Source: an uncultured Tateyamaria sp.
GTDB lineage: Bacteria; Pseudomonadota; Alphaproteobacteria; Rhodobacterales; Rhodobacteraceae
Length of the DNA: 64,000 nucleotides
Direction: 5' to 3'
Assembly (NCBI GenBank): GCA_905480645.1
Contig: CAJQRC010000039.1
Coordinates: forward strand, 1 to 64,000
Part shown: positions 5,810-28,326 of the stretch, one piece after another
Layout: every line of letters starts with the position of its first letter
Position numbering within the stretch: the stretch's first letter is position 1
The notes under the pieces: model-generated
The model's input: the letters and a program-made list of their open reading frames with translations, nothing else
The model's database searches: none
What the model was told of the DNA's origin: nothing
Program-made: the position numbers and the translations under genes

Positions 5810-5961
5810 CGTTGGCCCCTTTATGTGCAAATTGTTCTGCGTTATAGGGATGGCACCAGCAGGTGCAAGAGGTTCGGGCCGGCGCCTTACTTTTATTCAA
5901 TAGATTTTCAGATTGAACATATACCAGTTACTCTTGAATGGGCGACGTAATTCAATCCTGA

Positions 5962-6726: not shown

Positions 6727-6802
6727 ATTTGAAATTTAACTGGCTTTTTTTAAAGCTGCCAGAGGGATTGAGGCAGTATATCTTAAGATATAGAGTTCTA
6801 TT

Positions 6803-7177
6803 ATGGACACTAGACAATCTATCGAAATTCGCTCGGAGCGAATAAAAAAAGGCATGAATAAGGCCTTTGGTTGTAAGGCTGAAACATTGGAAAAAGCATT
6901 GCGTACAGTTGGGCGTCGTTTACCTAAACGGGTGCGAAAAAAAGTCAGCCTTGTTACTACCGCGGAAGGCATGGGTGGACACCCAAAATTGATACAGCGA
7001 ATAGATGGAGTAGCATTAGCAGTTGCTGAAAAGGAAATCATGACTTTCTTAAAGGGCATTAATCGTTTTGATGCGCGCAAGAGGTATTTGATTTCTACAG
7101 CTGGTATGATTGTGCTTAACATATTTTTCGTTGGTTGCTGTTATATTATTTGGGCTATTTTAACTGAAAAATTGTGA
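6803..7177 (+). CDS. Conserved hypothetical protein with C-terminal membrane helix
   Basis: A 124-residue basic protein that I do not recognise as a characterised family. The first 90 residues are soluble and rich in Lys/Arg (RRLPKRVRKK near 38-47). The last 25 form one strongly hydrophobic helix (about 98-119, MIVLNIFFVGCCYIIWAIL), so it is probably tail-anchored in the inner membrane. The opposite strand is open over nearly the same span, but its translation is low-complexity and has no usable start. The forward frame, with its clean membrane helix, is the better gene. It is convergent with glyA. Confidence 0.6.
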   Translation: MDTRQSIEIRSERIKKGMNKAFGCKAETLEKALRTVGRRLPKRVRKKVSLVTTAEGMGGHPKLIQRIDGVALAVAEKEIMTFLKGINRFDARKRYLISTAGMIVLNIFFVGCCYIIWAILTEKL

Positions 7178-7229
7178 TCTACTTTCATTGCGAGCCACTC
7201 TCATAAAACAGATTGATAAACATTTCCAA

Positions 7230-7245
7230 AAAGAGAAAACTCTTT
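7230..7245 (-). terminator. Probable glyA terminator hairpin
   Basis: A perfect 6-bp stem AAAGAG/CTCTTT with a four-base loop lies in the convergent gap between the small membrane protein and glyA. Read on the minus strand it is followed by a T-rich run. The stem is AT-rich, so termination may be weak. Confidence 0.4.
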
Positions 7246-7308
7246 CGTTAAAATGTTTTCTACTGGTTATTATAGTGGCTGGTAATCTTGGATGGATATT
7301 ATAAGTAA

Positions 7309-8604
7309 CTAAAAGTTGGAGTAAATTGGGAACCGTTCACAGAGAATTGCAACTTCTGTCTTAACGCGGTCTTCAACTTCAGAATTGCCGTCCTCACCGT
7401 TTATGGCAAGTCCATCGACTACCTGATTAATCCAGTCACCAATTTGACGGAATTCACTTTCTCCAAAGCCTCGTGTTGTTGCCGCTGGTGAGCCAAGACG
7501 AATGCCGGAGGTTATCATTGGTTTTTCATTATCAAATGGAACGCCATTTTTATTACAGGTAATGTGAGCCCTGCCCAACGCTTTTTCAGTAGAATTACCT
7601 TTGACACCTTTTGGACGGAGATCTACTAGCATGACATGGGTATCTGTGCCATGTGTGACTGTCTCTAGACCACCTTGGTGCAATTGATCTGCTAACGCTT
7701 GAGCATTCTTGATCACTTGCTTCTGATAGGTTTTGAAGGATGGATCTAGTGCCTCACCAAAGGCGACTGCCTTAGCAGCAATTACATGCATTAAGGGCCC
7801 GCCTTGGATACCAGGAAAAATAGCTGAGTTAAACTTTTTAGCCAGTGTTTCGTTATTAGTGAGGATTAAGCCACCACGTGGTCCACGAAGCGTTTTGTGC
7901 GTTGTAGTGGTGGCCGCATGCACATGAGGTAAGGGATTGGGGTATTCGCCCGCTGCAATCAAACCGGCGAAGTGAGCAACGTCTGCGAGTACAAATGCTC
8001 CTACTTCGTCGGCAATATCTCGGATACGTGCAAAGTCTATAACACGTGGAATTGCAGAGCCCCCAGCGATAATCATTGCAGGTTTGTGCTCTCGAGCCAG
8101 TTTTTCTATTTGGTCGTAATCTATGTCAAGAGTATCTCGACGTACTCCATATTGCACGGCGTTAAACCATTTGCCAGATTGGTTTGGACTGGCACCATGC
8201 GTCAAATGCCCTCCTGCATCCAGTGACATGCCAAGGATTGTGTCGCCGGGCTGCAGCAGTGCTTGGAATACGCCTTGATTGGCTTGAGAACCCGAATTCG
8301 GCTGAACATTGGCGAATGAACAGTTGAACAGCTTCTTAGCGCGCTCTATGGCTAAATTTTCGGCAAGATCAACAAATTGACATCCGCCGTAATAGCGTCG
8401 CCCAGGATAACCCTCCGCATATTTATTTGTCATCACTGACCCTTGAGCCTCTAACACAGCCCGTGAAACAATGTTTTCAGATGCAATAAGTTCAATTTCG
8501 TTGCGTTGGCGTCCAAGCTCACTCTGGACCGATCCAAACAGCTCTGGATCACTTTCTGCGAGAGATTTCGAAAAAAAACTACTATTACGGTGCAGCGCGT
8601 TCAT
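7309..8604 (-). CDS. glyA: Serine hydroxymethyltransferase
   Basis: A PLP enzyme of 431 residues that interconverts serine and glycine while loading tetrahydrofolate with a one-carbon unit. The PLP lysine is Lys237 in [14 protein letters not shown], and the N-terminal SENIVS and [13 protein letters not shown] motifs are intact. The length is normal for the family. A GGGAGA ribosome binding site precedes ATG 8604. It is transcribed away from NAD kinase. A longer antisense-like frame across its 5' end (to 8821) is not a plausible extension. Confidence 0.97.
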
Positions 8605-8775
8605 GAGAAGTCTCCCTTAAAAAGCTGGAATCACTAAATTTGACCGTTTCGTATCGTACTGTGTATGTTTCGCATAGCTGTAAATCGACTTTTTGACTAT
8701 GAGTCGCAGCAATGGTGGTAAGCGGTAAGGTTATATGCTTCTCTTGGAACGAAAAGGTATTGTTAGGATATAGGA

Positions 8776-9537
8776 ATGGGCCTAAAAATTGCTTTTGCGG
8801 CAAGTAAGGCGGCGGTAGCACAAGCAGCGCAAGCGACGCTGATCGAACGATATGGCAACGTAATATTTAAGGATGCAGATGTTATAGTCGCATTGGGTGG
8901 CGACGGATTTATGCTGCAAACCTTGCATGACACGGAGGTACTCTCCGCCCCCGTCTACGGAATGAATCGGGGTACTATTGGTTTTCTAATGAACGAATAC
9001 AGTGACATAAACTTAGTGGAACGACTTAAGGATGCTGAAGAAGCCGAGGTTAATCCGTTATCCATGACGGCTTGGGATTTAGACAATAAGGTTAATAAAG
9101 CGTTGGCTATTAATGAAGTATCGTTGCTGCGTGCGGGCCCACAAGCTGCCAAGTTGCGGATCAGCGTCGATGGTCGGTTGCGTATGGATGAGTTGGTTTG
9201 TGATGGTGCCTTGGTTTCAACGCCTGCGGGCTCTACCGCATATAACTATTCTGCACATGGGCCTGTTCTGCCGATCGGATCGGACGTGCTAGCATTGACT
9301 GCGGTTGCGGCTTTTCGTCCAAGACGTTGGCGAGGTGCGCTGTTGCCAAAATTAGCTCACGTACGCTTTGACGTTTTGGAGAGCGAAAAGCGGCCAGTAA
9401 TGGCTGAGGCAGATTCTCGGTCTTTTGAAAATATTACCGCAGTGGAAATTAAATCAGATCCAAGTGTGGTACACCGTATATTATTTGACCCGGGACATGG
9501 TCTTGAAGAAAGATTAATTTCGGAGCAGTTCACTTGA
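8776..9537 (+). CDS. nadK: NAD kinase
   Basis: A 253-residue NAD kinase, phosphorylating NAD to NADP. The GGDG motif with its catalytic aspartate is at 41-44 (ALGGDGFMLQ). The AINEVSLLR and CDGALVSTPAGSTAYNYSAHGP segments form the NAD-binding site. It matches the short alphaproteobacterial form. The stop codon overlaps the TTG start of the following iron-sulfur flavoprotein gene, so the two are probably co-translated. Confidence 0.95.
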   Translation: MGLKIAFAASKAAVAQAAQATLIERYGNVIFKDADVIVALGGDGFMLQTLHDTEVLSAPVYGMNRGTIGFLMNEYSDINLVERLKDAEEAEVNPLSMTAWDLDNKVNKALAINEVSLLRAGPQAAKLRISVDGRLRMDELVCDGALVSTPAGSTAYNYSAHGPVLPIGSDVLALTAVAAFRPRRWRGALLPKLAHVRFDVLESEKRPVMAEADSRSFENITAVEIKSDPSVVHRILFDPGHGLEERLISEQFT

Positions 9538-10736
9538 AACTTCGAGCGCCGGTGGTTCGAAGCTTATGTACTGATTGTGGCGTGTCCCGAATGGCAGATC
9601 CGTCCGCGTGTGGAAATGCTTGCCAATTTATCAAGCCAAACTACCCGATGATGGAGCAAGCCGCACACGGACGTTCAAGAAAAGGTGGGGACGAACTGTT
9701 TTTCGGTCCTTTTCAGGGTATGCATCGTGCGCGAATGGTAAAACCTTTGGACGGAGCACAATGGACCGGAATCACCACTAGCATTGCAGCGGATTTGCTG
9801 AAAGCGGGTAAAGTCCAAGCCGTATTAACTATGGTGTCTGATAGTAATGACCGGTGGAAGCCAAAGCCTGCATTGATTACAAGTGCATCCGATATGGACC
9901 GTGCACGTGGTATGCGAATGGGCTTTGCTCCATTGCTAGCACTACTTGAGGAGGCTCAAGCTCGCAGGTTTTCTCGCCTAGCTGTAATAGGAATTCCATG
10001 TCAGATTTATGCACTGCGAAAGCTCGAGGATCAATTGGGTCTTGATCGGCTGTATGTCATCGGCACCCCTTGCTCAGACAACACAACAACAGAGAACTTT
10101 CACCGTTTTCTTTCCCTTCTTGATACAAATCCAGATAACATAAACTATTTGGAGTTTCGGGCTGATTATCATGTGGAGTTGCGTTATTATGATGGGAGAC
10201 AAAGAGTTATCCCGTTTCTGCAGCTCCCAATTTCAGAGTTGCCATCAGATTTTTTTCCTCTGACGTGCAGGACTTGCGTGGATTACACCAATGTGCTGGC
10301 AGATATTACCGTGGGTTATATGGCAGGTGAGGGCGATCAATGGGTTATAGTTCGCAATGAACGTGGTGCTGAAATGTTAGCTGGTTTGGGAGAGAAAATT
10401 TCACTCCAGCCGATAAAAAGTCATGGCAAACGGCAGGCCGCGGTCAAGGGTTTTATTGCTAATACTGCGCGTGCGGCAGGGGGATTGCCAATTCGTAGAA
10501 TGCCTCGTTGGGTGCGGCCAATTGTAAGCTGGCTTCAACCTCGCATCGGACCAAGAGGGTTAGAATTTGCGCGTACTCGAGTTGAAATGAAAGCGGCGGA
10601 AACAATTTTGCATTTACGGCATACGTTACCGTCTAAAATGAAAAACATGATTCCTAATCACGTCTGGGAGATTGCATCCAGGTACAATCTGAAACCGCTC
10701 ACAGGAGAACGACTTGATAAATCTGAAAATGAATAG
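9534..10736 (+). CDS. BciB/HCAR-like F420-dehydrogenase beta-family iron-sulfur flavoprotein
   Basis: A 400-residue protein of the coenzyme F420 hydrogenase/dehydrogenase beta-subunit family. Its closest recognisable members are the ferredoxin-dependent divinyl-chlorophyllide 8-vinyl reductase BciB and plant 7-hydroxymethyl chlorophyll a reductase. Cysteines that would hold iron-sulfur clusters are at 12, 15, 26 and 30 (LCTDCG...CGNAC), 156 (GIPCQIYALRKL), 180 (GTPCSDN), and 245 and 248 (CRTCVDY). The blocks GIPCQIYALRKL, GTPCSDN and ADITVGYM resemble BciB. The start is TTG 9534, inside the last codons of nadK (TTGA overlap). No other bacteriochlorophyll gene is visible, so the vinyl-reductase role is inferred. 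A general ferredoxin:flavin reductase role is the alternative. Confidence 0.7.
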   Translation: MKLRAPVVRSLCTDCGVSRMADPSACGNACQFIKPNYPMMEQAAHGRSRKGGDELFFGPFQGMHRARMVKPLDGAQWTGITTSIAADLLKAGKVQAVLTMVSDSNDRWKPKPALITSASDMDRARGMRMGFAPLLALLEEAQARRFSRLAVIGIPCQIYALRKLEDQLGLDRLYVIGTPCSDNTTTENFHRFLSLLDTNPDNINYLEFRADYHVELRYYDGRQRVIPFLQLPISELPSDFFPLTCRTCVDYTNVLADITVGYMAGEGDQWVIVRNERGAEMLAGLGEKISLQPIKSHGKRQAAVKGFIANTARAAGGLPIRRMPRWVRPIVSWLQPRIGPRGLEFARTRVEMKAAETILHLRHTLPSKMKNMIPNHVWEIASRYNLKPLTGERLDKSENE

Positions 10737-10883
10737 TGAAATAGTGTAATATTTACGAACTTAATCAGGATAATAATCTTTTCATTTTAATTCAAATGCT
10801 GGTTCGTGATCGCTTGGCGTGGTCAAAGCTTCGTGCTAAACAAATCAGACAAAAGGTCGGTAAAGACCCGAGCAGTTAGTAAA

Positions 10884-11897
10884 ATGACAGCACTAAGTAA
10901 GTATGATCGTCTCGAAGCGACGGGCCTGTGGCGCATCAACCCGTCTGAGCAACGTCGCGAGGTCGTTGTCTCCATAGGTGATGCTACTTTAATTATTTCC
11001 GATATTAACGATACTGCGCTTACTCACTGGTCTCTGGCTGCTGTTGAAAAGGCCATCTTTAGTGATGAGGTTGCGATCTTTTTTCCAGACGGTGATCCCG
11101 AGGAAACATTAGAACTGGCCTTCTCTGAGAAAGAGATGATCGAAGCTATTGATATATTGAGGCAAGCAGTGTTGCGCACACGACCTCATCCAGGTCGAGT
11201 GCGGTGGTTGGGCGCAGGTTTAACTTTATTTATGATAACTGTTCTAACTTTTTTATGGCTTCCGGGGGCATTAGTAGATCATGCCTTACGTGTTGTACCT
11301 GCTGTTAAAGAAGCTGAAATTGGGAAAGCTTTATTGAAGCGCATTGAAAGAGTGTCTGGTCCATCATGCTGGACGTCAGCAGCATCCTCAGGACTTAGAG
11401 CATTGGCTGAGCGCACAAGTGTGGATAGTGTGGTTGTTCTTCCGGGGGGGGTTCGAGAAGCACTTGCTCTGCCAGGTGGTACCATTTTGATCAATCGATC
11501 ATTAATTGAGGAATTCGATGAGCCGGACGTGGCTGCAGGCTATCTTTTGGCAGAAAAAGTAAGAAATTCACTTTCACCACCGCTCCGGCAGTTATTGGAA
11601 AGTGCAGGCATACGGGTGACTGCTAAATTATTGACAACTGGTCAGATTCCTGAGTGGGCCCTTGATGCATTTGCAGAGGCGCAGCTGGCAAGCCCTACTA
11701 TTTTGTTACCGGCCGATATTCTTCTACCAGTTTTTGCTGACGCTAATATAAGTAGCACACCTTTCGCGCTGACCCAAAAAAATTCAGATGATAAAACTAA
11801 GAAGTTGATCAAATATGATCCGATAGGTGCATCTCCAACAGCAATGATCATGCGAGATGCAGACTGGTTGCAGCTTCAGGTAATCTGTGCAGAGTGA
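10884..11897 (+). CDS. Membrane protein resembling an M48 peptidase that has lost its zinc motif
   Basis: About 337 residues from ATG 10884; the open frame extends 26 codons further upstream but that part looks non-coding. Residues 1-105 form a soluble domain. A membrane helix follows at about 108-130 (GAGLTLFMITVLTFLWLPGALV), then an outer domain. The outer domain contains VVVLPGGVREALALPGGTILINRSLIEEFDEPD, the strand-turn that precedes the zinc helix in M48 metallopeptidases. Where HExxH is expected the protein has LAEKV (223-227), so zinc binding and catalysis appear lost. It lies 147 bases downstream of the BciB-like gene on the same strand. The function is unknown; a pseudo-protease or scaffold is my inference. 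Confidence 0.6.
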   Translation: MTALSKYDRLEATGLWRINPSEQRREVVVSIGDATLIISDINDTALTHWSLAAVEKAIFSDEVAIFFPDGDPEETLELAFSEKEMIEAIDILRQAVLRTRPHPGRVRWLGAGLTLFMITVLTFLWLPGALVDHALRVVPAVKEAEIGKALLKRIERVSGPSCWTSAASSGLRALAERTSVDSVVVLPGGVREALALPGGTILINRSLIEEFDEPDVAAGYLLAEKVRNSLSPPLRQLLESAGIRVTAKLLTTGQIPEWALDAFAEAQLASPTILLPADILLPVFADANISSTPFALTQKNSDDKTKKLIKYDPIGASPTAMIMRDADWLQLQVICAE

Positions 11898-16219: not shown

Positions 16220-18493
16220 ATGTCTGAACAATCAAACCTGCGTGAAGCAGCTCTTAAATATCATGAATTCCCAAAGCCAGGGAAGTTAGAGATCAGGGCT
16301 ACAAAGCCGATGGCAAATGGACGTGATCTGGCGCGGGCATATTCACCCGGCGTTGCCGAAGCTTGTCTGGAGATTAAAAATGATCCGTCTAGTGCTGCGC
16401 GCTACACTGCCCGCGGTAACTTGGTGGCGGTAGTCAGCAATGGAACAGCGGTGCTGGGTCTTGGTAACATTGGAGCACTTGCCGCAAAGCCAGTAATGGA
16501 GGGCAAAGCAGTACTATTCAAAAAATTCGCTTCTATAGATTGCTTCGACATAGAATTAGATGAAGCAGATCCTGAGAAGTTAGCTGAAATAGTTTGCGCT
16601 TTGGAGCCTTCTTTTGGCGCAATAAATTTGGAAGACATTAAAGCACCTGATTGCTTTATAGTTGAGCGTATTTGTCGAGAACGAATGAATATTCCAGTAT
16701 TTCATGATGATCAGCATGGGACAGCTATTGTTGTAGGAGCAGCCGCTAAGAATGCGTTGCAGGTGACTGGAAAACGTTTTGAAAATATAAAAATTGTATC
16801 GACAGGTGGAGGAGCCGCTGGAATTGCATGTTTAAACATGCTCTTGAAAATGGGAGTTCAACGCAAAAACATTTGGCTATGTGACATTCATGGATTAGTT
16901 TACGAAGGCCGAAAAATTGACATGAATCCATCCAAGGCTGCTTTCGCGCAATCAAGCAATAAACGTACATTAGACAGTGTAATTGATGGAGCAGATATGT
17001 TTTTGGGACTGTCTGGGCCGAATGTTCTCACTCAGGATAATGTCAAAAAAATGGTGGCAGCTCCGATTGTTTTTGCACTGGCTAACCCAACTCCAGAAAT
17101 ATTGCCAGAATTGGTCCGCGAGGTAGCGCCAGATGCTATTATAGCAACTGGGCGCAGCGATTTCCCCAACCAAGTAAATAATGTACTTTGTTTCCCTTTT
17201 ATTTTTCGTGGTGCTTTGGATGTAGGTGCGACTACTATAAATGATGAAATGCAATTGGCGTGTATAGAAGGTATCGCTGCCCTTGCACGTACTACGACGA
17301 GCGCTGAGGCCGCAGCAGCTTATCAGGGTGAACAACTCACGTTTGGTGCGGAATATTTAATTCCAAAGCCTTTTGATCCACGTCTTGTAAGTGTTGTCAG
17401 TTCGGCCGTTGCTGAGGCTGCGATGAAAACAGGTGTTGCTACAAGACCACTGGATGATCTTGAAGCTTACAGACGCCGTTTAGATGGTTCTGTTTTCAAG
17501 TCAGCCTTGGTTATGCGGCCAGTATTTGAAGCTGCTCGAGCCTCATCACGTCGGATAGTATTTGCTGAAGGAGAGGATGAGCGTGTTCTACGCGCAGCTC
17601 AAGCAATGTTGGAAGAAACTACAGAGCGTCCGATATTGATTGGCCGCCCAGAAGTGATCGAGGCACGCATTGAGCGGGCTGGCTTGACGATCAAGATGGG
17701 TGAAAGGGTTGATCTCGTTAATCCTGAAAATGACCCACGTTATCGTGATTATTGGGAGACCTATCACAACCTTATGTGTCGCCAAGGAGTCACCCCAGAT
17801 CTGGCGCGAGCGATAATGCGCACAAATACTACTGCCATCGGTGCTGTTATGGTAAACCGCGATGAGGCAGATAGTATAATTTGCGGGACATTTGGTGAGT
17901 TCCGTTGGCACATGAATTATATAAAGCAAGTTTTGGGAAGAGAAGCTTTTCATCCAGTGGGCGCTCTAAGTATGATGATCTTAGAAGATGGCCCGCTATT
18001 TATTACTGATACGCAAGTTCATTTGCACCCTAAACCTGAGGAGATAGCTAAAATTGCGGTTGGCGCGGCCCGACATGTCCGTCGTTTTGGGATAGAACCA
18101 AATATTGCATTCTGCTCACAGTCTCAGTTTGGTAACCACGGTAATGGTTCAGGCTGGCGTTTGCGTGAAGCAATTAAAATTCTAGACGCTGAAGGTCACG
18201 ATTTTTGCTATGAAGGCGAAATGAATATCGACACAGCTCTAGATCCTGATTTGCGACAGCGACTTTTCCCAGGCAACCGGATGAAAGGTCCTGCCAATGT
18301 TTTAGTATTTGCTCATGCTGACGCAGCGTCAGGCGTGCGAAATATTTTAAAAATGAAAGGTGGCGGTCTTGAAGTTGGCCCAATTTTAATGGGCATGGGA
18401 AACCGCGCTCATATTGTCAGCCCTTCAATTACAGCCCGTGGTCTGCTCAATATGTCTGCTATTGCTGGGACACCTGTGGCCCACTATGGATAG
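16220..18493 (+). CDS. maeB: NADP-dependent malic enzyme fused to phosphotransacetylase-like domain
   Basis: A 757-residue protein. Residues 1 to about 425 are the malic enzyme ([41 protein letters not shown] as the NAD(P) fold, and [27 protein letters not shown]). Residues from about 440 form a PTA-like domain ([40 protein letters not shown]). It decarboxylates malate to pyruvate, supplying pyruvate and NADPH during growth on acids. The PTA-like half is usually regulatory rather than catalytic. The gene is monocistronic, with a palindrome in its promoter. Confidence 0.96.
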
Positions 18494-18780: not shown

Positions 18781-20670
18781 ATGGGTTACCGCGCGGAATA
18801 CGACTTCTGGAAAGCTGATCCAGAAGCGTACTGGCTAAAACAAGCCGAAGCTATTGATTGGGTAGAAGCCCCAAAGCATGCTTTGTTTGACCGCGGTAAT
18901 GGTTTTTATGAGTGGTTTGCGGATGCTAAGGTCAATACCTGCTGGAACGCGGTTGATCGGCATGTAGCCGCCGGACGTGGAGACCAAGTTGCCATAATTC
19001 ATGATAGCCCAATCACTGGCACCAAATCTAAAATTACCTACTTTGAACTTAAAGATGAAGTCTCAAAATTAGCAGGTGCGCTTGCTATGCGTGGTGTGAC
19101 TTTAGGTGACCGCGTCATAATCTATATGCCAATGGTTTCGGAGGCACTAATTGCGATGTTGGCGTGTGCGCGAATTGGCGCAGTACATTCAGTTGTGTTT
19201 GGTGGGTTCGCTGCCAATGAATTGGCCGTTCGAATAGATGACTGTACACCGAAAGTCATTATTGCGGCTTCCTGTGGATTAGAACCTGGGCGCGTAGTTG
19301 CTTATAAACCATTGCTTGATGGTGCGATTGAAATAGCCGAACATTCGCCAGAGTTCTGTGTGATTTTACAACGTGAACAATGTTCTTGCGACTTGAAAAA
19401 GACTGACGTTGATTGGCATGCTTTCCAATTGGGAATTAAACCAGTGGATTGTGTGCCGGTTGCGGGAAATCATCCAGCTTATATACTTTATACTTCAGGA
19501 ACTACTGGAGCTCCAAAAGGCGTAGTACGCCACACTGGGGGGCATCTAGTAGCTTTAAACTGGACAATGAAAAACATCTATCAAGTCGAACCAGGAGAAG
19601 TCTTCTGGGCTGCCTCTGACGTGGGATGGGTCGTTGGGCATTCTTATATTTGTTATGCACCTTTAGTGCATGGAAACACCACAATAGTTTTTGAAGGTAA
19701 GCCAATTGGTACCCCTGACGCGGGCACCTTCTGGCGCGTGATTGAAGAGCATGACGTCAAAAGTTTTTTTACTGCACCGACCGCAATAAGAGCTGTCAAA
19801 CGTGAAGACCCGAAGGGTTTGGAGCGCCACAAATACAATTTGGGCTGTTTGCGTGCACTTTATCTCGCAGGCGAACGCGCTGATCCTGACACTATTGAAT
19901 GGGCGCAAAATATTCTAGGCGTGCCTGTATTCGATCACTGGTGGCAAACTGAAACTGGTTTCACCATCGTGGGTAATCCTGCTGGTTTAGAAGAGTTACC
20001 TGTCAAAATAGGATCTCCAACGGTTCCAATGCCAGGATATGATGTACAAATTTTAGATGATTTGGGCCGACCCGTTGCACCAGGAGAGCTTGGAGCTGTT
20101 GTAATTAAATTGCCGTTGCCACCTGGAACCTTACCAACCTTGTGGAATGCAGATGATCGGTTTCGAAAATCTTATCTTGAGGCCTTTCCTGGTTACTATG
20201 AGACAGGTGATGCAGGTATAATGGATGAAGATGGATACCTTTATATTATGGCCAGAACGGATGATGTGATTAATGTGGCTGGCCATCGTCTGAGCACTGG
20301 CGCGATGGAGGAAGTCCTTGCAGGGCACCCTGATGTTGCAGAATGTGCTGTTGTGGGTGTTAGTGATCCACTTAAAGGGCAAGTACCTCTAGGGTTATTG
20401 TGCCTCACCAGTGGTGTGAATCGTCAACATCCAGAAATTGTGAGTGAATGTGTCAAAATTGTGCGAGACCAAATTGGACCAGTCGCTGCATTCAAACAAG
20501 CGCTGGTAGTAGATCGATTACCTAAGACCCGATCGGGAAAAATTTTACGGAGTACTGTAGTAAAGATTGCTGACAATCAGGATTTTAAAGTACCTGCTAC
20601 GATTGATGATTTGGCAATTCTAGATGAGATTAAGCTTGCCCTTCAAACAATAGGTTATGCTAAAGGCTAA
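18781..20670 (+). CDS. prpE: Propionyl-CoA synthetase (acetyl-CoA synthetase family)
   Basis: A 629-residue AMP-forming acyl-CoA synthetase that activates propionate, and to a lesser degree acetate, to the CoA thioester. The ATP loop YTSGTTGAPKGVVR, the DHWWQTETGF motif, the YETGDAG segment and the catalytic C-terminal lysine in LPKTRSGKILRS are all present. The N-terminus (YDFWKADPEAYW) and overall length match PrpE better than Acs. A GGTGGAG ribosome binding site precedes ATG 18781. It is followed by about 245 bases with no visible gene before the hydroxyacid dehydrogenase. Propionate is a known product of DMSP breakdown, which may link it to the neighbouring DmdB-like gene, but that is inference. 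Confidence 0.92.
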   Translation: MGYRAEYDFWKADPEAYWLKQAEAIDWVEAPKHALFDRGNGFYEWFADAKVNTCWNAVDRHVAAGRGDQVAIIHDSPITGTKSKITYFELKDEVSKLAGALAMRGVTLGDRVIIYMPMVSEALIAMLACARIGAVHSVVFGGFAANELAVRIDDCTPKVIIAASCGLEPGRVVAYKPLLDGAIEIAEHSPEFCVILQREQCSCDLKKTDVDWHAFQLGIKPVDCVPVAGNHPAYILYTSGTTGAPKGVVRHTGGHLVALNWTMKNIYQVEPGEVFWAASDVGWVVGHSYICYAPLVHGNTTIVFEGKPIGTPDAGTFWRVIEEHDVKSFFTAPTAIRAVKREDPKGLERHKYNLGCLRALYLAGERADPDTIEWAQNILGVPVFDHWWQTETGFTIVGNPAGLEELPVKIGSPTVPMPGYDVQILDDLGRPVAPGELGAVVIKLPLPPGTLPTLWNADDRFRKSYLEAFPGYYETGDAGIMDEDGYLYIMARTDDVINVAGHRLSTGAMEEVLAGHPDVAECAVVGVSDPLKGQVPLGLLCLTSGVNRQHPEIVSECVKIVRDQIGPVAAFKQALVVDRLPKTRSGKILRSTVVKIADNQDFKVPATIDDLAILDEIKLALQTIGYAKG

Positions 20671-20915: not shown

Positions 20916-22046
20916 CTAAACGACAGAGTTTTTAACTAATGCATCATACGTAACATCATTAATGTCGTTTAGTCCTAGTTGTGCTAATGTTATACTTACT
21001 TCTTCTGCCAATAAGTTTGTAATTTCCTGCAGCCCTACAGCACCATTTGCAGCAACTGCGAAAGAAAATGGTCTTCCAAGAAAAACAAAATTAGCACCCA
21101 TGGCATATGCTTTGATAATGTCTTCGCCATTGCGGATTCCGCTATCATAAAAAAGTTTCATGTCAGGTCCAAGTGCCTCACGAATATCACGCAATGCAAG
21201 AATGGCTGGTTTTGAGCTATTTAATTGGCGTCCACCATGGCTGGAAACTTGAATCGCATCAACTCCAATAGATTGCAGCCGTTTTGAATCCTCAACACCC
21301 ACAACCCCTTTTACAACTAAATTGCCAGTCCAGTTGTCACGAATTTTGGCTAGCGTATCCCATGTTGCTGCTGCGCGGCTTTCAGTTCGATCAAACACGC
21401 CATGTTCACCACCAAAATTTGCCATCTTGGGCTTCCCCAATAATATCTGAGATATGGACCATTGAGGATGACAAGCAAAGTCAATTAATTGTCGAGCGCC
21501 GATCTGAAATGGCATTTTGAACCCATGTTTTAATTCTCGAGGACGACGACCGACTTCTGGCACATCTACTGTTAAGATAAGGGTATCGTAGCCTGCCTCT
21601 TTTGCTCGATTGACAAGACGGTAAGAGCCTTCCATGCGGCCACTCAAATACAGTTGAAACCATGCATTTCCATTTGATAACTCATTCATTTTTTCAAGAG
21701 ATGTTGATGCGACTGTAGATACGCCGATAGGTATTTCAAATTGTGCAGACAAGCTTGCCAGTAACCTGTCGGCCTTTGGCGATGATAAATTGCACATGCC
21801 CATGGGCGCTATGCCAAAGGGCAGTTTGGGCCTTGTCATAAAAAGAGGTACTGCAATATTGCGCTTCTGAACATTTTTCAAAATCTGCTGCTTTAGCCAA
21901 AGTTTTTGTAAAGTTTCTCTGTTGAGTTGTTCTGAATACCCGCTTCCCGCAGCACCATCTATATAGTCAAAAACCATCCAAGGTAGACGCTGTTTAGCGA
22001 TGCGCCGAGCATCCTTAAAAGAGTGTATTGTTCTATTGAACAACAT
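20916..22046 (-). CDS. FMN-dependent 2-hydroxyacid dehydrogenase/oxidase (LldD-like)
   Basis: A 376-residue member of the L-lactate dehydrogenase/glycolate oxidase flavoprotein family, oxidising an (S)-2-hydroxyacid to a 2-oxoacid. Catalytic His270 and substrate Arg273 are present. The motif reads SSHGGRQLN rather than the usual SNHGGRQLD, so the active-site surround differs. FQLYL (130-134), DVPEVGRRPRE (161-171), Lys246 and the FMN-phosphate site FLGRP are in place. I chose ATG 22046, with AGGGG seven bases before it, over a TTG 12 codons upstream. It lies 130 bases after the ComE-like gene on the same strand. That placement suggests its product is the substrate of the ComDE-like decarboxylase, for example sulfolactate to sulfopyruvate (inference). 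Lactate is the default alternative. Confidence 0.85.
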   Translation of the reverse strand: MLFNRTIHSFKDARRIAKQRLPWMVFDYIDGAAGSGYSEQLNRETLQKLWLKQQILKNVQKRNIAVPLFMTRPKLPFGIAPMGMCNLSSPKADRLLASLSAQFEIPIGVSTVASTSLEKMNELSNGNAWFQLYLSGRMEGSYRLVNRAKEAGYDTLILTVDVPEVGRRPRELKHGFKMPFQIGARQLIDFACHPQWSISQILLGKPKMANFGGEHGVFDRTESRAAATWDTLAKIRDNWTGNLVVKGVVGVEDSKRLQSIGVDAIQVSSHGGRQLNSSKPAILALRDIREALGPDMKLFYDSGIRNGEDIIKAYAMGANFVFLGRPFSFAVAANGAVGLQEITNLLAEEVSITLAQLGLNDINDVTYDALVKNSVV

Positions 22047-22175
22047 GGCAAGACCCCTGTTAAGTAGAGGCAACGTATTCAACGTGCCACGCTAATTTAA
22101 AGATAGAACGGTTCACGATTTCAAGTTAAAAAGTTAACATAACAGAACATAAAATGCGCTTTATCACAAATTTTT

Positions 22176-22730
22176 TCAGGCTTTTACAGCATTCATAAAG
22201 CGTTCTTTAATCATAACGGGATCTTTTGTAATGACGGGTAATTTAATGTTACCACTATCGCATTTGACGACAATAATTGTCATTCTTTTACTGTCGATAG
22301 CGGCTTGCAGTACCTTGGCAGTATCTAAGTCCTGACAGGTGATCACATTCTCACACCCGCAGGCCATTGCGACGTTTTCAAGCTTGGTCTTCTTGCCCGC
22401 ATAGGTGGGCTGGTCACCAGTGGACCCGTACGAACCATTGTCGATGATTAGTAATATAAAGTTGTCTGTTACATTGTTTGCTATCGTTGGTAGCGTACCT
22501 AGATTAGTCAGAACTGATCCATCGCCATCTATAGATATGACAGTTTTATCTTGGGCTAGCGCCAGGCCAAGTCCAATTGATGAGGACAGTCCCATAGTTC
22601 CTAGCATGTAAAAGTTTGTTGGTTGATCATCGATCAAATGCATTTCCTGGCTTGGTAACCCGATGTTGCAGATAACTAGTTGGTCTCTAAGAATGGGCGC
22701 GATTTCACGCAGGATTTCAGAACGGATCAT
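22176..22730 (-). CDS. comE: Sulfopyruvate/phosphonopyruvate decarboxylase beta subunit (ComE-like)
   Basis: A 184-residue TPP-binding subunit. The thiamine-diphosphate motif starts with GDG at 69-71 and ends with DN at 97-98, the normal spacing. NIGLPSQEM (22-30) and FYMLGTMGLSSSIGLGLAL (40-58) match ComE of sulfopyruvate decarboxylase. The enzyme releases CO2 from sulfopyruvate to give sulfoacetaldehyde. The same fold serves phosphonopyruvate decarboxylase, so the substrate is not fixed by sequence alone. The gene overlaps the alpha-subunit gene by four bases (ATGA), as expected for a heteromer. No xsc gene for the next step is in the window. Confidence 0.8.
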   Translation of the reverse strand: MIRSEILREIAPILRDQLVICNIGLPSQEMHLIDDQPTNFYMLGTMGLSSSIGLGLALAQDKTVISIDGDGSVLTNLGTLPTIANNVTDNFILLIIDNGSYGSTGDQPTYAGKKTKLENVAMACGCENVITCQDLDTAKVLQAAIDSKRMTIIVVKCDSGNIKLPVITKDPVMIKERFMNAVKA

Positions 22731-23233
22731 TGGTCGCCATAGCCTCCCCAGAAGTTAGCATCGGTCAGAATTGCGACCGGTTTGTTGCACATAAAAGTGT
22801 ATTTCAGAATGGCATCTAACTCTTCCACATCACTTTGGTGGTGAAAGTGGTAGGTAGGAATATTCATTTGAGCCAAAAGCGCTTTAGTGTGTACCGCCAT
22901 TTCAACCTGACAAGCGACTGGTTCGCGAAGCTCACCACGATACGAGATAATCATAGGCAGAGGCATCCGGTAATATTGTATCAGTGTAGCCAATGTGTTG
23001 ATTGTTACTCCAATAGCTGTATTTTGCATAATAATTGCTGGCCTTTTACCACCCATGAAAGCCCCGGCGCAAAGCCCCATGCCTTCGTCTTCCTTGTTGG
23101 ATGGAATATGGAAAATTTCGTCACGCCCTTCAATCTCTTCAATTACGCCAGCCAATTGCTTGCAAGGGACTGTCGTTACGAAAGAAATATCGTTTGCAAC
23201 AAGATCATCAGTGATCTTTTTATTCAATGACAT
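22727..23233 (-). CDS. comD: Sulfopyruvate/phosphonopyruvate decarboxylase alpha subunit (ComD-like)
   Basis: A 168-residue partner of the ComE-like subunit, carrying the pyrimidine-binding half of the thiamine enzyme. The region IPSNKEDEGMGLCAGAFMGG (43-62) includes the acidic residues (Glu48/Glu50) that activate the cofactor, and IIMQNTAIGVTINTL follows. In many phosphonopyruvate decarboxylases both halves are one chain; a split into two short genes is the ComDE arrangement. It is the first gene of the unit and is transcribed away from a LysR regulator, which probably controls it. Confidence 0.8.
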   Translation of the reverse strand: MSLNKKITDDLVANDISFVTTVPCKQLAGVIEEIEGRDEIFHIPSNKEDEGMGLCAGAFMGGKRPAIIMQNTAIGVTINTLATLIQYYRMPLPMIISYRGELREPVACQVEMAVHTKALLAQMNIPTYHFHHQSDVEELDAILKYTFMCNKPVAILTDANFWGGYGDQ

Positions 23234-23268
23234 TGAAATACTCCGTTAGTATTTTCAGGTTAATTCTT

Positions 23269-23285
23269 ATAAAAAATAATTTTAT
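23269..23285. promoter_or_regulatory. AT-rich dyad in the comD/LysR divergent gap
   Basis: ATAAAA and TTTTAT form a perfect inverted repeat with a 5-base spacer in the 138-base gap between comD and the LysR gene. LysR proteins bind such interrupted dyads (classically T-N11-A), but the AT-richness makes chance occurrence plausible. Confidence 0.3.
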
Positions 23286-23371
23286 GCAAGAAATAAATTT
23301 TTGATATAAAGTAAAATTTTAGTTTAGTTATCTACGGCTAATTATTTGGAATACGTGACATAGGGTTTCGG

Positions 23372-24265
23372 ATGACAATTTCTTTATTTAAGACAGTAAT
23401 AGCAATTTCTGAATGTGGTAGTTTTAGTGGTGCGGCAGACATTATGTGCGTAACTCAGGCTGCTGTTGGGCAACAAATGCGCCGTTTGGAGGCTTCGTTA
23501 GGTGTAAAACTTTTTGATCGTTCAGAAAAAATACCTCGGCTGAACCAATTAGGAAAATCTTTTGTTCCTAAAGCAAAAGAGGTTGTCGTTGCATATGAAA
23601 CTATTTTAGACGATTTGACGGGCGATCCGCGCATGATTGGTGAACTCAGTCTGGGTGCTGTACCGTCGACGATACGAGAGCTTATACCAAGGTCTGCCAA
23701 AGGATTGATGTGCTTGTACCCAGATCTTCATATTCGTGTTGTTCCGGAGTTATCACCTAGACTTTTGGAACAGGTTGAACAAGGTACGTTAGACGCTGCG
23801 GTTATGAGTGAGCCACTGCGTGTAAGTGACAACTTAAACTGGATGCCTTTTTATAAAGAAAAATTGGTCCTGTTAACTGCGCCCAGAATAAAAGAAATGG
23901 ACCCACGAAAAATACTCGCAACTATGCCCTACATCCGGCATACGCGACACGCTGCAGTTGGAATGCTGGCAGAAGAATGGTTGTCAAAGCACGACGTTAA
24001 GGTGAATGATACTATGGAAATGAGTTCCTTGGAGAACTTGGTGAGTATGGTCTCGCATGATTTGGGGGTTTCTGTTGGCCCAAATGTTTGTGTGCCAGAT
24101 CCTATATTTCGAAAACTGAATAAAATCCCGCTTGGGCCGAACACACCCGTACGCACGTTAGGTATTTTGACTCGCGCTGATTGTTCCAAATTACGTTTGG
24201 TTATGGAACTTTTAGCACAAATTAAAAAAGTTGTTCAGCAGGAAAATCCCGATACCAAAGACTAA
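23372..24265 (+). CDS. LysR-family transcriptional regulator
   Basis: A 297-residue regulator. The N-terminal winged helix-turn-helix is clear (AISECGSFSGAADIMCVTQAAVGQQMRRLEASLGVKLFDR, about 11-50), followed by the linker helix and a two-lobe periplasmic-binding-like effector domain. It diverges from comD with 138 bases between, the usual layout for a LysR activator and its target. The effector is probably the organic acid or its oxidation product, though this is inferred from position only. It is convergent with the acyl-CoA ligase gene, 34 bases away. Confidence 0.92.
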   Translation: MTISLFKTVIAISECGSFSGAADIMCVTQAAVGQQMRRLEASLGVKLFDRSEKIPRLNQLGKSFVPKAKEVVVAYETILDDLTGDPRMIGELSLGAVPSTIRELIPRSAKGLMCLYPDLHIRVVPELSPRLLEQVEQGTLDAAVMSEPLRVSDNLNWMPFYKEKLVLLTAPRIKEMDPRKILATMPYIRHTRHAAVGMLAEEWLSKHDVKVNDTMEMSSLENLVSMVSHDLGVSVGPNVCVPDPIFRKLNKIPLGPNTPVRTLGILTRADCSKLRLVMELLAQIKKVVQQENPDTKD

Positions 24266-24299: not shown

Positions 24300-25928
24300 T
24301 TATATTAGCTTAGCTATTTGACGAAGTTGGAATTTTTGTATTTTACCAGTCGACGTTTTAGGTAATTCTTGAAACACTACTTGCTTGGGTGTTTTAAAGC
24401 CGGCAAGCGTTTGACGACTAAAAGTGATTAAGTCTGCCTCTGTAGGCGCAGTGCCTGGTTTGAGTTCTATAAATGCGCACGGCACTTCGCCCCATTTATC
24501 GTCTGGCTTAGCAACTACGGCGGCGAGGTTCACATCAGGGTGGCCCATCAAAACTCCTTCCACCTCCACGGAAGATATGTTTTCTCCACCAGATATAATG
24601 ATGTCTTTAGCTCGGTCGGAAATTTGAATGTATCCGTCAGGATGTTGAACTGCTATATCTCCAGAATGAAAATAGCCACCCACAAATGCTTCTGCAGTGG
24701 CTTCTGCATTTTTTAAATAACCTTTCATAACAGAGTTGCCCCTCACCATAATTTCGCCTTGGGAGGTAGCATCCATTGGAACCTGCGCCATTTCACTATC
24801 AAAAACTGTTATATGCTCCATCATAGGGAATGCGACACCCTGCCGTGCTTTGATTGCGGCCTTTTCATTTTGTTCCAAGCTATCCCAGTCGCTTGAACGC
24901 CACACGCACTCTGTGACATGCCCATAGGTTTCTGTAAGCCCATAAACTTGGGTGATATTAAAACCTAATTCTCCAATTTTACTCAACGTGGCGGGAGCGG
25001 GAGGCGCGCCGGCAGTAAAAACTTGCACAATGTGGTTAAATTGCCTTCGATCGGCTTCCTCAGCATTAACGATCAAATTTAGGACAATTGGAGCTCCGCC
25101 GAAATGAGTAACCCCTTCATCGGCTATAGCATCGTAAATCGGTTTTGCCGCAATATCGCGACAACATACAACTGTACCACCGAGCAATGGCATCATCCAT
25201 GTATGGTTCCATCCATTGCAATGGAACAGGGGCACAATAGCTAAATAAATCGGATATAATTGCATTTGCCAAGAGATTACGGTGCCCATTGTCATCAGGT
25301 AAGAGCCGCGGTGGTGTGAGACCACGCCTTTGGGCAGGCCCGTTGTACCGGAGGTGTAATTAAGGGAAATACTTTCCCACTCGTCGGAGGGCATAATCCA
25401 GTCAAATTTTGGATCGCCATTGGCAAGAAGGTCTTCGTATTCAATATGGTTGTTCGTTTTCGACCAGCCATGCGCGGTATCAGCCACTTCTATAATAACT
25501 GGAGCTGGACCGTCCATTTGTGCACTAGCTGCTTCTGCTAGATCAATGAATTGTGTGTCCACTAGGACGATTTTTGCCTCACCGTGGTCAAAAATGTAAG
25601 CCACAGTAGCAACATCCAAACGCGTATTAATGGTGTTTAAGACAGCTCCTGAAGCTGGAACACCAAAATGCGCTTCAGCCTGAGCAGGAAGGTTCGGTAT
25701 CAAAGTGGCAACCACATCACCTGGCGTTATATTCATTTTTGAAAGTGCTGAAGCTAGTCGTGTACATCGGCTGTAATACTCAGAGTAGGATACTCTGTGA
25801 GCACCATAAACCACTGCTGTTCGATTGGCAAAAACCTGCGCGGCTCGACGCAAGTGAGATAACGGGGTCAAAGCAACATAATTCGCTTCAGTTTTCTCTA
25901 AACCACGCTCATCAGTCATCCAACCCAT
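24300..25928 (-). CDS. AMP-forming acyl-CoA ligase, DmdB-like
   Basis: A 542-residue fatty acyl/AMP-binding ligase. The ATP loop YTSGTTGLPKGVV, the VYGLTETYGHVTE motif, the YFHSGDIAV segment and the C-terminal lysine in LPKTSTGKIQK are intact. The N-terminal LTPLSHLRRAAQVFANRTAVVYG, the FHCNGWNHTW stretch and the length match the group containing methylmercaptopropionate-CoA ligase DmdB and medium-chain ligases. Family knowledge allows substrates such as methylmercaptopropionate or short branched acids. It lies downstream of a GST and an acyl-CoA dehydrogenase on the same strand. The dehydrogenase is too short to be DmdC (about 590 residues), so a DMSP role is only a hypothesis. Confidence 0.75.
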   Translation of the reverse strand: MGWMTDERGLEKTEANYVALTPLSHLRRAAQVFANRTAVVYGAHRVSYSEYYSRCTRLASALSKMNITPGDVVATLIPNLPAQAEAHFGVPASGAVLNTINTRLDVATVAYIFDHGEAKIVLVDTQFIDLAEAASAQMDGPAPVIIEVADTAHGWSKTNNHIEYEDLLANGDPKFDWIMPSDEWESISLNYTSGTTGLPKGVVSHHRGSYLMTMGTVISWQMQLYPIYLAIVPLFHCNGWNHTWMMPLLGGTVVCCRDIAAKPIYDAIADEGVTHFGGAPIVLNLIVNAEEADRRQFNHIVQVFTAGAPPAPATLSKIGELGFNITQVYGLTETYGHVTECVWRSSDWDSLEQNEKAAIKARQGVAFPMMEHITVFDSEMAQVPMDATSQGEIMVRGNSVMKGYLKNAEATAEAFVGGYFHSGDIAVQHPDGYIQISDRAKDIIISGGENISSVEVEGVLMGHPDVNLAAVVAKPDDKWGEVPCAFIELKPGTAPTEADLITFSRQTLAGFKTPKQVVFQELPKTSTGKIQKFQLRQIAKLI

Positions 25929-26181
25929 AACGTCCCCCTTAGAGTAATTACAAAAGCTATTCCCAATTGAATTGACAATATAAAGTTAAGATATTGCATT
26001 TTTACCCTCTCATAATTATTTTAAAAGCTATTATCAATCAAAGAAGCTTTCCAAGATTACAAAACGTGGGCTGTACTAATAAGGAAAATTTTGACTATTA
26101 CAAAATCTTTTTGGCATCACTTCCGCCGTTGCAACTGATTTAGTTTATTATGCGCTATTGGTTTTTTATTGATTTAAACCT

Positions 26182-26814
26182 TCAGCCTCGATCAGCTGGA
26201 GAACCGGGCATAAGGTCGTAGGGTGCTTTCCAGCCTGAAAAATTCTCGATGTTGTTTAGCCACCGATCGACGTTAGCCCATTCAGAACGAATAAATCCAA
26301 ATGGTTCTGGATAAAACAAGTAGCCGCAGCAACTGATGTCAGCGTTTGTAAGGTCGTTTCCAACGATCCAGTCTCGATTAGTTAGATGAGTTTCCAGAAC
26401 GCCGTAAGCAGCCTTAAGACGACCTTTATTGAAGTTAATCACCTCTAATGGTCGCTTTTCTTCTGGTAGGAAATTCATCAAGAAACGAGTAAGTCCAGCC
26501 ATTGAACTTAATTTGTGGTTATCCCATAGCACCCAACGAAGAACTTCGTATTTATCAAGGCTAGTCCCTCCGAAACAACCAGTTTTGTCGGTGATGTATT
26601 GTTGAATAACACCTGATTGACTGATCATTGTATCGTTGTCTATCAAAAGAGGTACTTCTCCCATGGTATTCAAAGAGCGATAAGAATCAGTTCGTGCTTC
26701 ACCATTGAAAAAATCAACAAATATTGGTTCCCATTCTAGTCCTGAAAGTTCTAACGCCAGGGCTGCTTTGTATGAGTTCCCACTTTCACCGAAACAATGT
26801 AATTTTTGGATCAT
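26182..26814 (-). CDS. Glutathione S-transferase family protein
   Basis: A 210-residue GST with an N-terminal thioredoxin-like domain (KLHCFGESGNSYKAALALEL; the EVPLLID cis-proline and QSGVIQQYI glutathione-binding region near 53-74). A helical C-terminal domain contains DWIVGNDLTNADISCCGYLFY, with the conserved N-capping box. It presumably conjugates or removes glutathione from a substrate handled by the neighbouring CoA enzymes. It sits 59 bases after the acyl-CoA dehydrogenase stop and 254 bases before the ligase start, all on the minus strand. Confidence 0.88.
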   Translation of the reverse strand: MIQKLHCFGESGNSYKAALALELSGLEWEPIFVDFFNGEARTDSYRSLNTMGEVPLLIDNDTMISQSGVIQQYITDKTGCFGGTSLDKYEVLRWVLWDNHKLSSMAGLTRFLMNFLPEEKRPLEVINFNKGRLKAAYGVLETHLTNRDWIVGNDLTNADISCCGYLFYPEPFGFIRSEWANVDRWLNNIENFSGWKAPYDLMPGSPADRG

Positions 26815-26872
26815 TTTGTTTTGCCTTTGGCTTTTATGGATTTACGATAGATAAATTGAGCAGTGGCTCGCA

Positions 26873-28030
26873 TTAAAATGCTCTTGCGATCAATTCTTTC
26901 ATAATTTCGTTTGTCCCACCATATATTCTCTGTACGCGTGCATCCGTCCACATTTCGCCAATAGCATATTCCTGCATAAAGCCATAACCGCCATGTAGCT
27001 GTAAACACTCATCCAAAACCGAGGCTTGAGCATCGGTTGTCCAGTATTTGCACATTGCCGCTTTATCTACTGACAGTTTTTTCTGCATATGCTCTAATAC
27101 ACATTCATCAAAAAATGCGCGACTAACCATAGTTTTGGTTTTGGCCTCAGCAAGTTTGAAACGAGTGTTTTGAAACTGCATTATCGGGCCACCGAAGGCT
27201 TCCCGTTCTTTAGCATAAATTATGGTGCGCTCCACCGCACCTTCCATGGCACCCACGGCGGAACAAGCAATTATAAGGCGTTCTTGAGGCAATTGGGTCA
27301 TTAGCTGGCCAAAGCCTTGCCCCTCATCTCCACCCAAGATATTTTCTGGGGGGATCTCAACGTTATCAAAAAATAGCTCAGATGTATCGGAAGCGTGCAT
27401 TCCTATTTTTTCAAGGTTGCGTCCGCGTGTGAAGCCAGTTGCATCATCCGTTTCCACAACGACCAGTGATATGCCTTTTGACCCTTGAGAAGGATCTGTC
27501 TTAGCCGCAACGATAACTAAATTGGCGTGTTGCCCGTTAGTAATGAATGTTTTTTGCCCTGACAGCTTGTACGCATTCCCATCACGTAGGGCGCTTGTTC
27601 GTATCGCCTGCACATCTGAACCTGTTGAAGGTTCGGTCATGGCGAGGGCACCAACTAATTCTCCTGTGACCATTTTGGGCAGCCAGCGATTTTTTTGCTT
27701 TTGAGTCCCGTAGCTTAGAATATAATGTGCCACTATTCCGGAATGAATACCATGACCCCAAGCTGCAAGATTTGCTCGGGATGCTTCTATTAAAATTGCA
27801 GCTTCATGTCCAAAATTCCCTCCCGCACCACCGTACTCTTCTGGAATGGACGGACATAGTAGCCCTAGTTGTCCGGCTTGTTGCCACGTCGAGCGATCCA
27901 TTTCACCTTGTTTGCGCCACCGTGAGAAATTAGGCGCCCATTCCTTAGTGATAAACTGCGCGGTCATGTCTGCTATCATTTTATGTTCGCTAGTCATCCA
28001 GCTTTCTTGATTAGGGTTTTGATATGTCAT
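26873..28030 (-). CDS. Acyl-CoA dehydrogenase
   Basis: A 385-residue FAD acyl-CoA dehydrogenase that forms the trans-2-enoyl-CoA and passes electrons to ETF. The FAD/substrate signatures [20 protein letters not shown] and [14 protein letters not shown], and the C-terminal [11 protein letters not shown] plus [15 protein letters not shown] (probable catalytic glutamate), are complete. I chose ATG 28030, with a GAGGA ribosome binding site eight bases upstream, over an in-frame start seven codons earlier. It is the first gene of a possible unit with the GST and acyl-CoA ligase. A near-palindrome TTGAACGTTCGA lies shortly upstream and could be an operator. Confidence 0.92.
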
Positions 28031-28326
28031 ATTTCCAGTCCTCAAGCACACGTTTGAACGTTCGATATAGAGATCGATATATTAGCCAAAGATTAAAAGA
28101 ACAGATAGTAGTTTTCGCAGTAAGCAGTACGCAACGTTATTTTTGGTTGCAGGTTAATTACAAGTTGCACCCACAGCTATCTTTTTTATTTTTTAAATTG
28201 TGAACAGTAGTCTTTTGATTTTTTGTTCATTTACAAAGTATGATTTGTATTCTGAAGCCTCGATAGTTGTAGCAGTTTGCTATCTTGACCTCGAAATTTC
28301 AATGAACTAGACGACGGTAAGGATAT

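Follow-up and report, generated by a model that had tools for sequence, protein, structure and literature searches.

Among the sulfonates that algae contribute to the ocean sulfur cycle are 2,3-dihydroxypropane-1-sulfonate (DHPS) and sulfolactate, and several bacterial routes for them have been described. In Ruegeria pomeroyi DSS-3, the gene order is hpsR-K-L-M-N-O-P-Q-slcD and slcD (SPO0598) encodes a membrane-bound sulfolactate dehydrogenase (PMC4334477), and SlcD is listed elsewhere as R-sulfolactate dehydrogenase (PMC11131964). An HpsNOP-SlcD-ComDE-Xsc pathway has been described in Jannaschia sp. CCS1, Ruegeria sp. ANG-S4, and Granulosicoccus antarcticus (PMC11382572), and hpsN, comDE, and soeABC have been reported in Roseobacter clade affiliated (RCA) roseobacters (PMC10675870). 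Roseovarius nubinhibens has a sulfolactate route with the SlcHFG transporter (cited via PMC5812351 and PMC6278857). Here, we analyzed a 64,000-nucleotide window of DNA from an uncultured Tateyamaria sp. (contig CAJQRC010000039.1), in which positions 20,916–24,265 carry genes for a LysR-family regulator, a split thiamine diphosphate (TPP) dependent decarboxylase (comD and comE), and a 2-hydroxyacid dehydrogenase of the LldD family that depends on flavin mononucleotide (FMN), hereafter the flavoprotein. Judged from its genes, this locus very probably encodes the steps from sulfolactate to sulfoacetaldehyde in the DHPS/sulfolactate route already known from marine Roseobacter-type bacteria.

Relatives of the flavoprotein were collected from GTDB species genomes in a scan that used three aligned family members as the query, and the best 80 of at least 581 were retained; loci and genomes carry L and G numbers where they have to be told apart. 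In an R. pomeroyi locus (L106), the slcD position is occupied by a protein that shares 59% identity with the flavoprotein over 373 residues, and the gene order is LacI-DctP-DctQ-DctM-HpsN-short-chain dehydrogenase/reductase (SDR)-alcohol dehydrogenase-UspA-FMN dehydrogenase. This order equals the published hps-slcD order, and slcD therefore belongs to the FMN_dh/LldD family. On this comparison, SlcD itself is assigned to the LldD-family flavoproteins, and the flavoprotein of the window is identified as a relative of the known SlcD and not as a new kind of enzyme. An earlier note on this stretch had suggested that an LldD-type partner of ComDE matches no described system. The claim of novelty fails because SlcD had not been recognized as an LldD-family protein by the earlier reader: the slcD slot of R. 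pomeroyi holds a homologue, and HpsNOP-SlcD-ComDE-Xsc is described in PMC11382572.

The phylogeny of the flavoprotein agrees with this assignment. The FMN_dh tree contained 90 rows (82 clade members and eight paralogues); the tree and the column counts omit L003, L188, L186, and L190, which repeat the gene of the window, L106, L058, and L056, respectively, as well as L097, whose gene is truncated. The 82 clade rows, including the protein of the window and that of R. pomeroyi, were split from the eight paralogues with a support of 100/99; one paralogue (L184), on a long branch, was placed with little certainty. The nearest tree partner was the protein of Tateyamaria pelophila (L056, 77% identity, support 100/99), and the two sit in a five-row group with L057, L058, and L089 (98/83). 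Two more full-length FMN_dh paralogues in the same genome are 28% and 35% identical to the flavoprotein. Arg220 is present in all 82 clade members and in none of the eight paralogues, and clade-specific residues of this type would provide a testable SlcD signature. A search of plasmids matched 808 records, all below 60% identity; the 13 best listed are from roseobacters (58.1–59.5%), and the other 12 listed have identities of 35.6–41.5%.

The gene neighborhoods of the 80 loci, which had been picked by flavoprotein similarity alone, point in the same direction. Homologues of comE were found in 60 loci, comD in 58, hpsN in 54, hpsO in 53, hpsP in 51, a LacI regulator in 43, LysR in 9, and TctA in 4, and at least one of comD, comE, hpsN, and tctA was present in 70 loci. 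In two genomes of the taxonomic family to which the window belongs (L046 and L047), hps, comDE, and FMN_dh genes form one cluster. The loci of the eight paralogues showed no markers except for one SDR match at 33% identity, a weak control given that their flanks are shorter than most of the 80.

Both subunits of the decarboxylase pass the models for sulfopyruvate decarboxylase: ComE scored 242 bits with the beta model TIGR03846 (cut-off 221.5), and ComD scored 149.5 bits with the alpha model TIGR03845 (cut-off 147.95). At E ≤ 0.001, the genome has a single ComE match, and such matches occurred in 112 of 289 genomes drawn from the class. Among the matches listed, ComE was at least 58% identical in eight genomes including that of the window, and the remainder were at most 48% identical. 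An FMN_dh gene follows comDE in two (G154 and G252) of the seven other genomes with ComE of at least 58% identity. The ComE tree, built with 47 of the 91 ComE sequences found and including no biochemically characterized sequence, placed the ComE of the window in a group of 25 rows (99/94) to which ComE proteins of hps clusters also belong; the 22 divergent TPP-enzyme rows fall outside it. This tree separates groups; by itself it assigns no substrate.

ComDE pairs were also observed inside sulfoquinovose-type clusters in two genomes (L050 of G022, 1592–10450, and L052 of G161, 5205–11676). These clusters contain an SftI-like isomerase (scores of 252 and 275 bits, where the cut-off is 700), a ribokinase-like kinase, and an aldose epimerase. 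A D-2-hydroxyacid dehydrogenase gene, whose product we take to be SlcC-like, immediately precedes comD in L050 and is two genes away from comE in L052. A LacD-type aldolase and an aldehyde dehydrogenase similar to succinate-semialdehyde dehydrogenase are further members of the L050 cluster. The two clusters are possibly a single-cluster route from sulfoquinovose to sulfoacetaldehyde.

The other parts of the pathway were found elsewhere in the genome. On contig C51, xsc was recognized with 895 bits (cut-off 676.4), a threshold passed by none of 14 control genomes, and it is followed by pta and by genes for a molybdopterin oxidoreductase, a 4Fe-4S protein, and a DmsC-type anchor. The search for xsc and pta suggested in the earlier note thus returned a true xsc with pta after it. 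The genes after pta are named soeABC-like from their arrangement, the molybdoprotein and the Fe-S protein passing no curated NCBIfam cut-off. Homologues of hpsN, hpsO, and hpsP are adjacent on contig C10, with 80, 75, and 69% identity to genes of hps clusters, and near them are a tripartite ATP-independent periplasmic (TRAP) transport system, a glucose-methanol-choline (GMC) oxidoreductase, and an IclR regulator. A search confined to this locus did not find an HpsKLM-type TRAP system or a LacI-type HpsR beside hpsNOP. Across the 13 genomes compared, Xsc exceeded its cut-off in 12 (the miss was a partial match of 485 bits at a contig start), and an HpsN homologue of at least 61% identity was present in all 13.

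With these gene identities, neighborhoods, clade membership, and further genes read from the sequence, it is well supported that the gene set of this genome would be enough to convert DHPS via sulfolactate, sulfopyruvate, and sulfoacetaldehyde to acetyl phosphate and sulfite. Sulfolactate would be produced from DHPS through HpsN, HpsO, and HpsP. SlcD, as an FMN enzyme, would form sulfopyruvate by oxidizing sulfolactate (most likely R-sulfolactate), with the electrons going to the respiratory chain. ComDE with thiamine diphosphate would then convert sulfopyruvate to sulfoacetaldehyde, which Xsc would cleave to acetyl phosphate and sulfite, and Pta and the SoeABC-like complex would carry out the final steps. 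The predicted handedness is consistent with PMC10153336, according to which FMN enzymes of the LldD/mandelate-dehydrogenase family act on L-2-hydroxyacids: by the priority rules L-sulfolactate should be the R form, which is also the product that HpsN would give from R-DHPS. The sulfolactate/sulfopyruvate pathway favored in the earlier note is supported by the xsc score, the ComDE model scores, and the frequency of comE and hpsN beside the relatives.

Several observations weigh against this assignment or narrow it. The identity of slcD was derived from the gene order of R. pomeroyi strain SZCCDBG043 and not from the DSS-3 protein. The margin of ComD over the TIGR03845 cut-off is just 1.6 bits, and no FMN_dh gene lies beside comDE in five of the seven other genomes with ComE of at least 58% identity (L048–L052). 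At the thresholds used, 8 of the 80 loci had no hps, comDE, or tripartite tricarboxylate transporter (TTT) marker; three of them (L085, L100, and L104) end at a contig edge just upstream of the gene, while L096 and L124 have full 10-kb flanks, and the link between slcD and hps or comDE is therefore not universal. The comDE-slcD, xsc, and hpsNOP sets lie on three separate contigs and may or may not be co-regulated. The TRAP system adjacent to hpsNOP is not an HpsKLM orthologue, as the matches of at least 38% identity at that place are HpsN, HpsO, and HpsP only. The regulator that precedes xsc is of the MocR type (352 bits with the PdxR model, above its cut-off of 320) and may have the TauR role, and the xsc locus could serve taurine.

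Three other explanations were weighed. The earlier note had named phosphonolactate and phosphonopyruvate as the alternative, in which phosphonopyruvate would be the product of the flavoprotein and would be turned into phosphonoacetaldehyde by the split TPP enzyme, acting as a phosphonopyruvate decarboxylase. The two decarboxylase families are related, and the best solved relative of ComE (9iz3, E = 4.4e-18) is labelled as a putative phosphonopyruvate decarboxylase beta subunit. We nevertheless disfavor this alternative and regard it as extremely improbable on the basis of family scores, the PEP (phosphoenolpyruvate) mutase result, and the sulfonate neighbors: ComE and ComD reached 132 and 74 bits with the phosphonopyruvate decarboxylase model TIGR03297, both below its cut-off of 312.5, which was set for a fused protein; the best PEP mutase match in the genome had 106 bits against a cut-off of 319.55, which speaks against making phosphonates and not against using imported ones; and the relatives have sulfonate genes of the hps and SlcHFG types as neighbors. 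An ordinary L-lactate or mandelate-type dehydrogenase that stands beside comDE by chance is likewise a very unlikely identity for the flavoprotein. Lactate dehydrogenase models do lead its NCBIfam matches, and its nearest solved relative by sequence is an (S)-mandelate dehydrogenase, but the scores of both leading models are below their cut-offs (255 bits versus 376 for NF008398 and 222 versus 550 for NF033901), the clade is split from the paralogues as described above, and 70 of its 80 members have comD, comE, hpsN, or tctA nearby.

The remaining alternative concerns the source of the substrate: the module may serve imported sulfolactate directly instead of sulfolactate derived from DHPS. A SlcHFG-type transporter is indeed part of the operon in the LysR-linked loci L056, L058, and L072, and also in L061, which has no LysR match. 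The operon of the window has no such transporter, and the best TctA of its genome is 41% identical to that of L058, compared with 89% and 85% for the orthologues in the genomes of L056 and L072. Since hpsNOP with a TRAP transporter are also present in the genome, we consider direct import unlikely and retain DHPS as the predicted source of sulfolactate.

The flavoprotein contains the motif SSHGGRQLN, as the earlier note had reported, with His270 and Arg273, which we take to be the catalytic residues of the family. Its reading as a hint of a different substrate does not hold, as the serine before the catalytic histidine (Ser269) is present in 75 of the 82 clade members and SSHG is thus ordinary for the clade. 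Position 276 is Asp in 40 members, Glu in 35, Asn in 4, Gln in 2, and Ser in 1. The motif was rejected as a sign of a new substrate because it is general in the clade.

The earlier note had also described the flavoprotein as soluble. The nearest solved relative by sequence, (S)-mandelate dehydrogenase 6bfg, is titled a monotopic membrane protein, and residues ~176–214 of the flavoprotein align without gaps to 6bfg and with gaps to the soluble form 1huv. Going by the entry titles, the segment that differs between the two forms is taken to be membrane-binding. The clade profile scored 317 bits with 6bfg and 279 bits with 1huv, and a tandem lactate oxidase construct outscored 6bfg in the sum over four stretches. 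The FMN_dh paralogues of the same genome retain a similar segment, which is consequently not specific to the SlcD clade. An AlphaFold model built with 29 sequences had a mean predicted local distance difference test (pLDDT) score of 83, with values below 50 for residues 164–181 and poor resolution in the region of the segment; what it shows is limited to the fold, which is that of glycolate oxidase/mandelate dehydrogenase. In a fold search, two glycolate oxidase entries ranked above 6bfg by E-value, and 6bfg had the highest query TM-score shown (0.84). Given the alignments with 6bfg and 1huv, a soluble enzyme is unlikely, and the flavoprotein is likely to be membrane-associated, as published for SlcD.

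LysR homologues with 43–79% identity occur near slcD homologues in 9 of the 80 loci. The LysR-linked form is a minority, which makes it distinctive but modest. L057 and L089 share the set of LysR, comDE, and slcD without a TTT match, and the layout of the window is therefore not unique. A TctC-TctA-TctB transporter is located beside slcD in L056, L058, L061, and L072. In Neptunicoccus (L058), comD, comE, tctC, tctA, tctB, and slcD follow LysR, while L072 has LysR, tctC, tctA, tctB, and slcD. According to PMC5812351, sulfolactate is taken up by TTT systems in which tctB lies downstream of tctA; these are named SlcHFG. The Tateyamaria locus L056 and the window have the flanking fadD-like and acyl-CoA synthetase genes in common. 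L056 retains the transporter; just comE fragments are left between LysR and tctC (6623–6939), and a full-length comDE is found in the hps cluster of that genome (L172, 3736–4802). On one reading, two sister lineages each lost a different part of a single operon. A gain of the transporter in the other relatives is also conceivable because two of the four close relatives (L057 and L089) do not have it either.

A TAAA-N7-TTTA box was present in all five divergent LysR spacers examined, including that of the window, and was read from their alignment. It was subsequently found in three of four co-directional LysR loci, the exception being L072; together, the window and eight of the nine LysR relatives (all but L097) were covered. 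In the AT-rich LysR-comD spacer, a match arises by chance in about 5% of shuffles, and the 64-kb window contains 7 matches versus 2.5 expected, a number reached in 1 of 100 shuffles. LysR probably controls comDE-slcD and would act on them via this site. No LysR regulator of sulfolactate, comDE, or slcD genes was evident from listings in the open-licence literature.

A gene for a GlcD-like FAD-linked oxidase was observed beside the transporter-slcD module in L061 (11115–12566), L058 (3378–4775), and L056 (4113–5513). The L058 and L056 proteins are 61% and 58% identical to that of L061, and the best match in the genome of the window is 46% identical and lies on another contig. This oxidase could handle the other sulfolactate enantiomer. 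A more speculative joint reading, which we consider rather doubtful as a whole, is that LysR is a dedicated sulfolactate sensor at the TAAA-N7-TTTA site of a second, hps-independent module (LysR-comDE-slcHFG-slcD, as in L058); the window would have lost the transporter, its operon now being an internal downstream segment for DHPS, and the GlcD-like enzyme of L056, L058, and L061 would oxidize the opposite enantiomer, giving an all-flavoprotein alternative to the NAD-dependent enzymes SlcC and ComC.

The features of the locus are summarized in Table 1. The LysR, comD, comE, and flavoprotein genes are present where the earlier note had placed them, with family matches far beyond chance, and the split decarboxylase with its overlap was confirmed by the coordinates (four bases, ATGA, 22727–22730). 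LysR is divergent and the flavoprotein gene is on the same strand as comDE, as the reasoning of that note had it; its heading, which called the flavoprotein divergent, was in error. The open reading frame (ORF) list starts the flavoprotein gene at a TTG (22082). The ATG at 22046, which gives 376 residues, is more probably the true start, as the corresponding residue is the first one in the ORFs of the relatives L046 and L047. The gap from comE to this ATG is 129 bp, and one transcript for comE and the flavoprotein gene is possible. A scan for terminator patterns gave two sites in the region, both on the opposite strand and none in the comE-slcD gap, and was not informative with 3.6 expected; a promoter scan gave 14 sites versus 8.4 expected, and its result was not used.

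Table 1 Features of the comDE-slcD locus in the window.
Feature	Position	Strand	Evidence
LysR-family regulator, 297 aa	23372..24265	+	Pfam LysR_substrate 2.4e-29, HTH_1 2.7e-15
LysR-comD intergenic region, putative LysR operator	23234..23371	.	TAAA-N7-TTTA boxes 23270-23284, 23307-23321, 23312-23326 (last two overlap)
comD, predicted sulfopyruvate decarboxylase alpha subunit, 168 aa	22727..23233	-	TIGR03845 149.5 bits
comE, predicted sulfopyruvate decarboxylase beta subunit, 184 aa	22176..22730	-	TIGR03846 242 bits
slcD homologue, FMN-dependent 2-hydroxyacid dehydrogenase	20916..22082	-	FMN_dh E=1.4e-107
Stretch (~residues 176-214) aligned to form-specific segment of (S)-mandelate dehydrogenase	21405..21521	-	alignment to 6bfg
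Active-site motif QVSSHGGRQLN, residues 266-276	21219..21251	-	Ser269 in 75 of 82 clade members

Past LysR, the window carries acyl-CoA synthetase, glutathione S-transferase-like, and acyl-CoA dehydrogenase genes (24300–28051). On the other side, an acetate/propionate-type ligase (18781–20670) is 87% identical to the gene flanking the module in Tateyamaria, the corresponding value for the acyl-CoA synthetase being 83%. A malic enzyme fused to a phosphotransacetylase-like domain (16220–18493; PRK12861, 990 bits, cut-off 1178) is distinct from the xsc-linked pta. On contig C10 of the same genome, a choline-dehydrogenase-like GMC oxidoreductase and an IclR-type regulator adjoin the TRAP genes and hpsNOP (L171, 14796–17271). 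The isethionate dehydrogenase locus (iseJ, together with iseKLM and iseR) has a similar arrangement, and the use of isethionate and DHPS may be combined there.

Taken together, neither the enzyme type nor the pathway of this locus is new; the observation of the earlier note was sound and its pathway guess largely correct. With this analysis, a route from DHPS to sulfite is predicted for one more genome. Because SlcD belongs to the LldD/mandelate-dehydrogenase family, genes annotated as "L-lactate dehydrogenase" or "alpha-hydroxy acid oxidase" beside comDE or hps are better read as candidate sulfolactate dehydrogenases.

Compared with R. pomeroyi, the flavoprotein and SlcD are both FMN_dh proteins of one clade, for which the same four NCBIfam models lead, whereas slcD of R. 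pomeroyi closes a LacI-linked hps cluster with no comDE in the stretch seen and slcD of the window follows comDE beside LysR. (S)-Mandelate dehydrogenase 6bfg has the same fold and aligns without gaps through the segment absent from the soluble form, but it is 34% identical over the fold and belongs to another pathway context. R. nubinhibens has the same sequence of sulfolactate, sulfopyruvate, sulfoacetaldehyde, and Xsc, and a TTT transporter also occurs in some relatives of the window locus; it differs in that the window locus has no SlcHFG and that R. nubinhibens also has a CuyA branch (PMC11382572). A further close counterpart is the HpsNOP-SlcD-ComDE-Xsc pathway outlined in the same source: homologues of the same enzyme set are all present in the genome of the window, where, unlike in the genomes described there, they are distributed over three contigs and the slcD-comDE part is linked to LysR.

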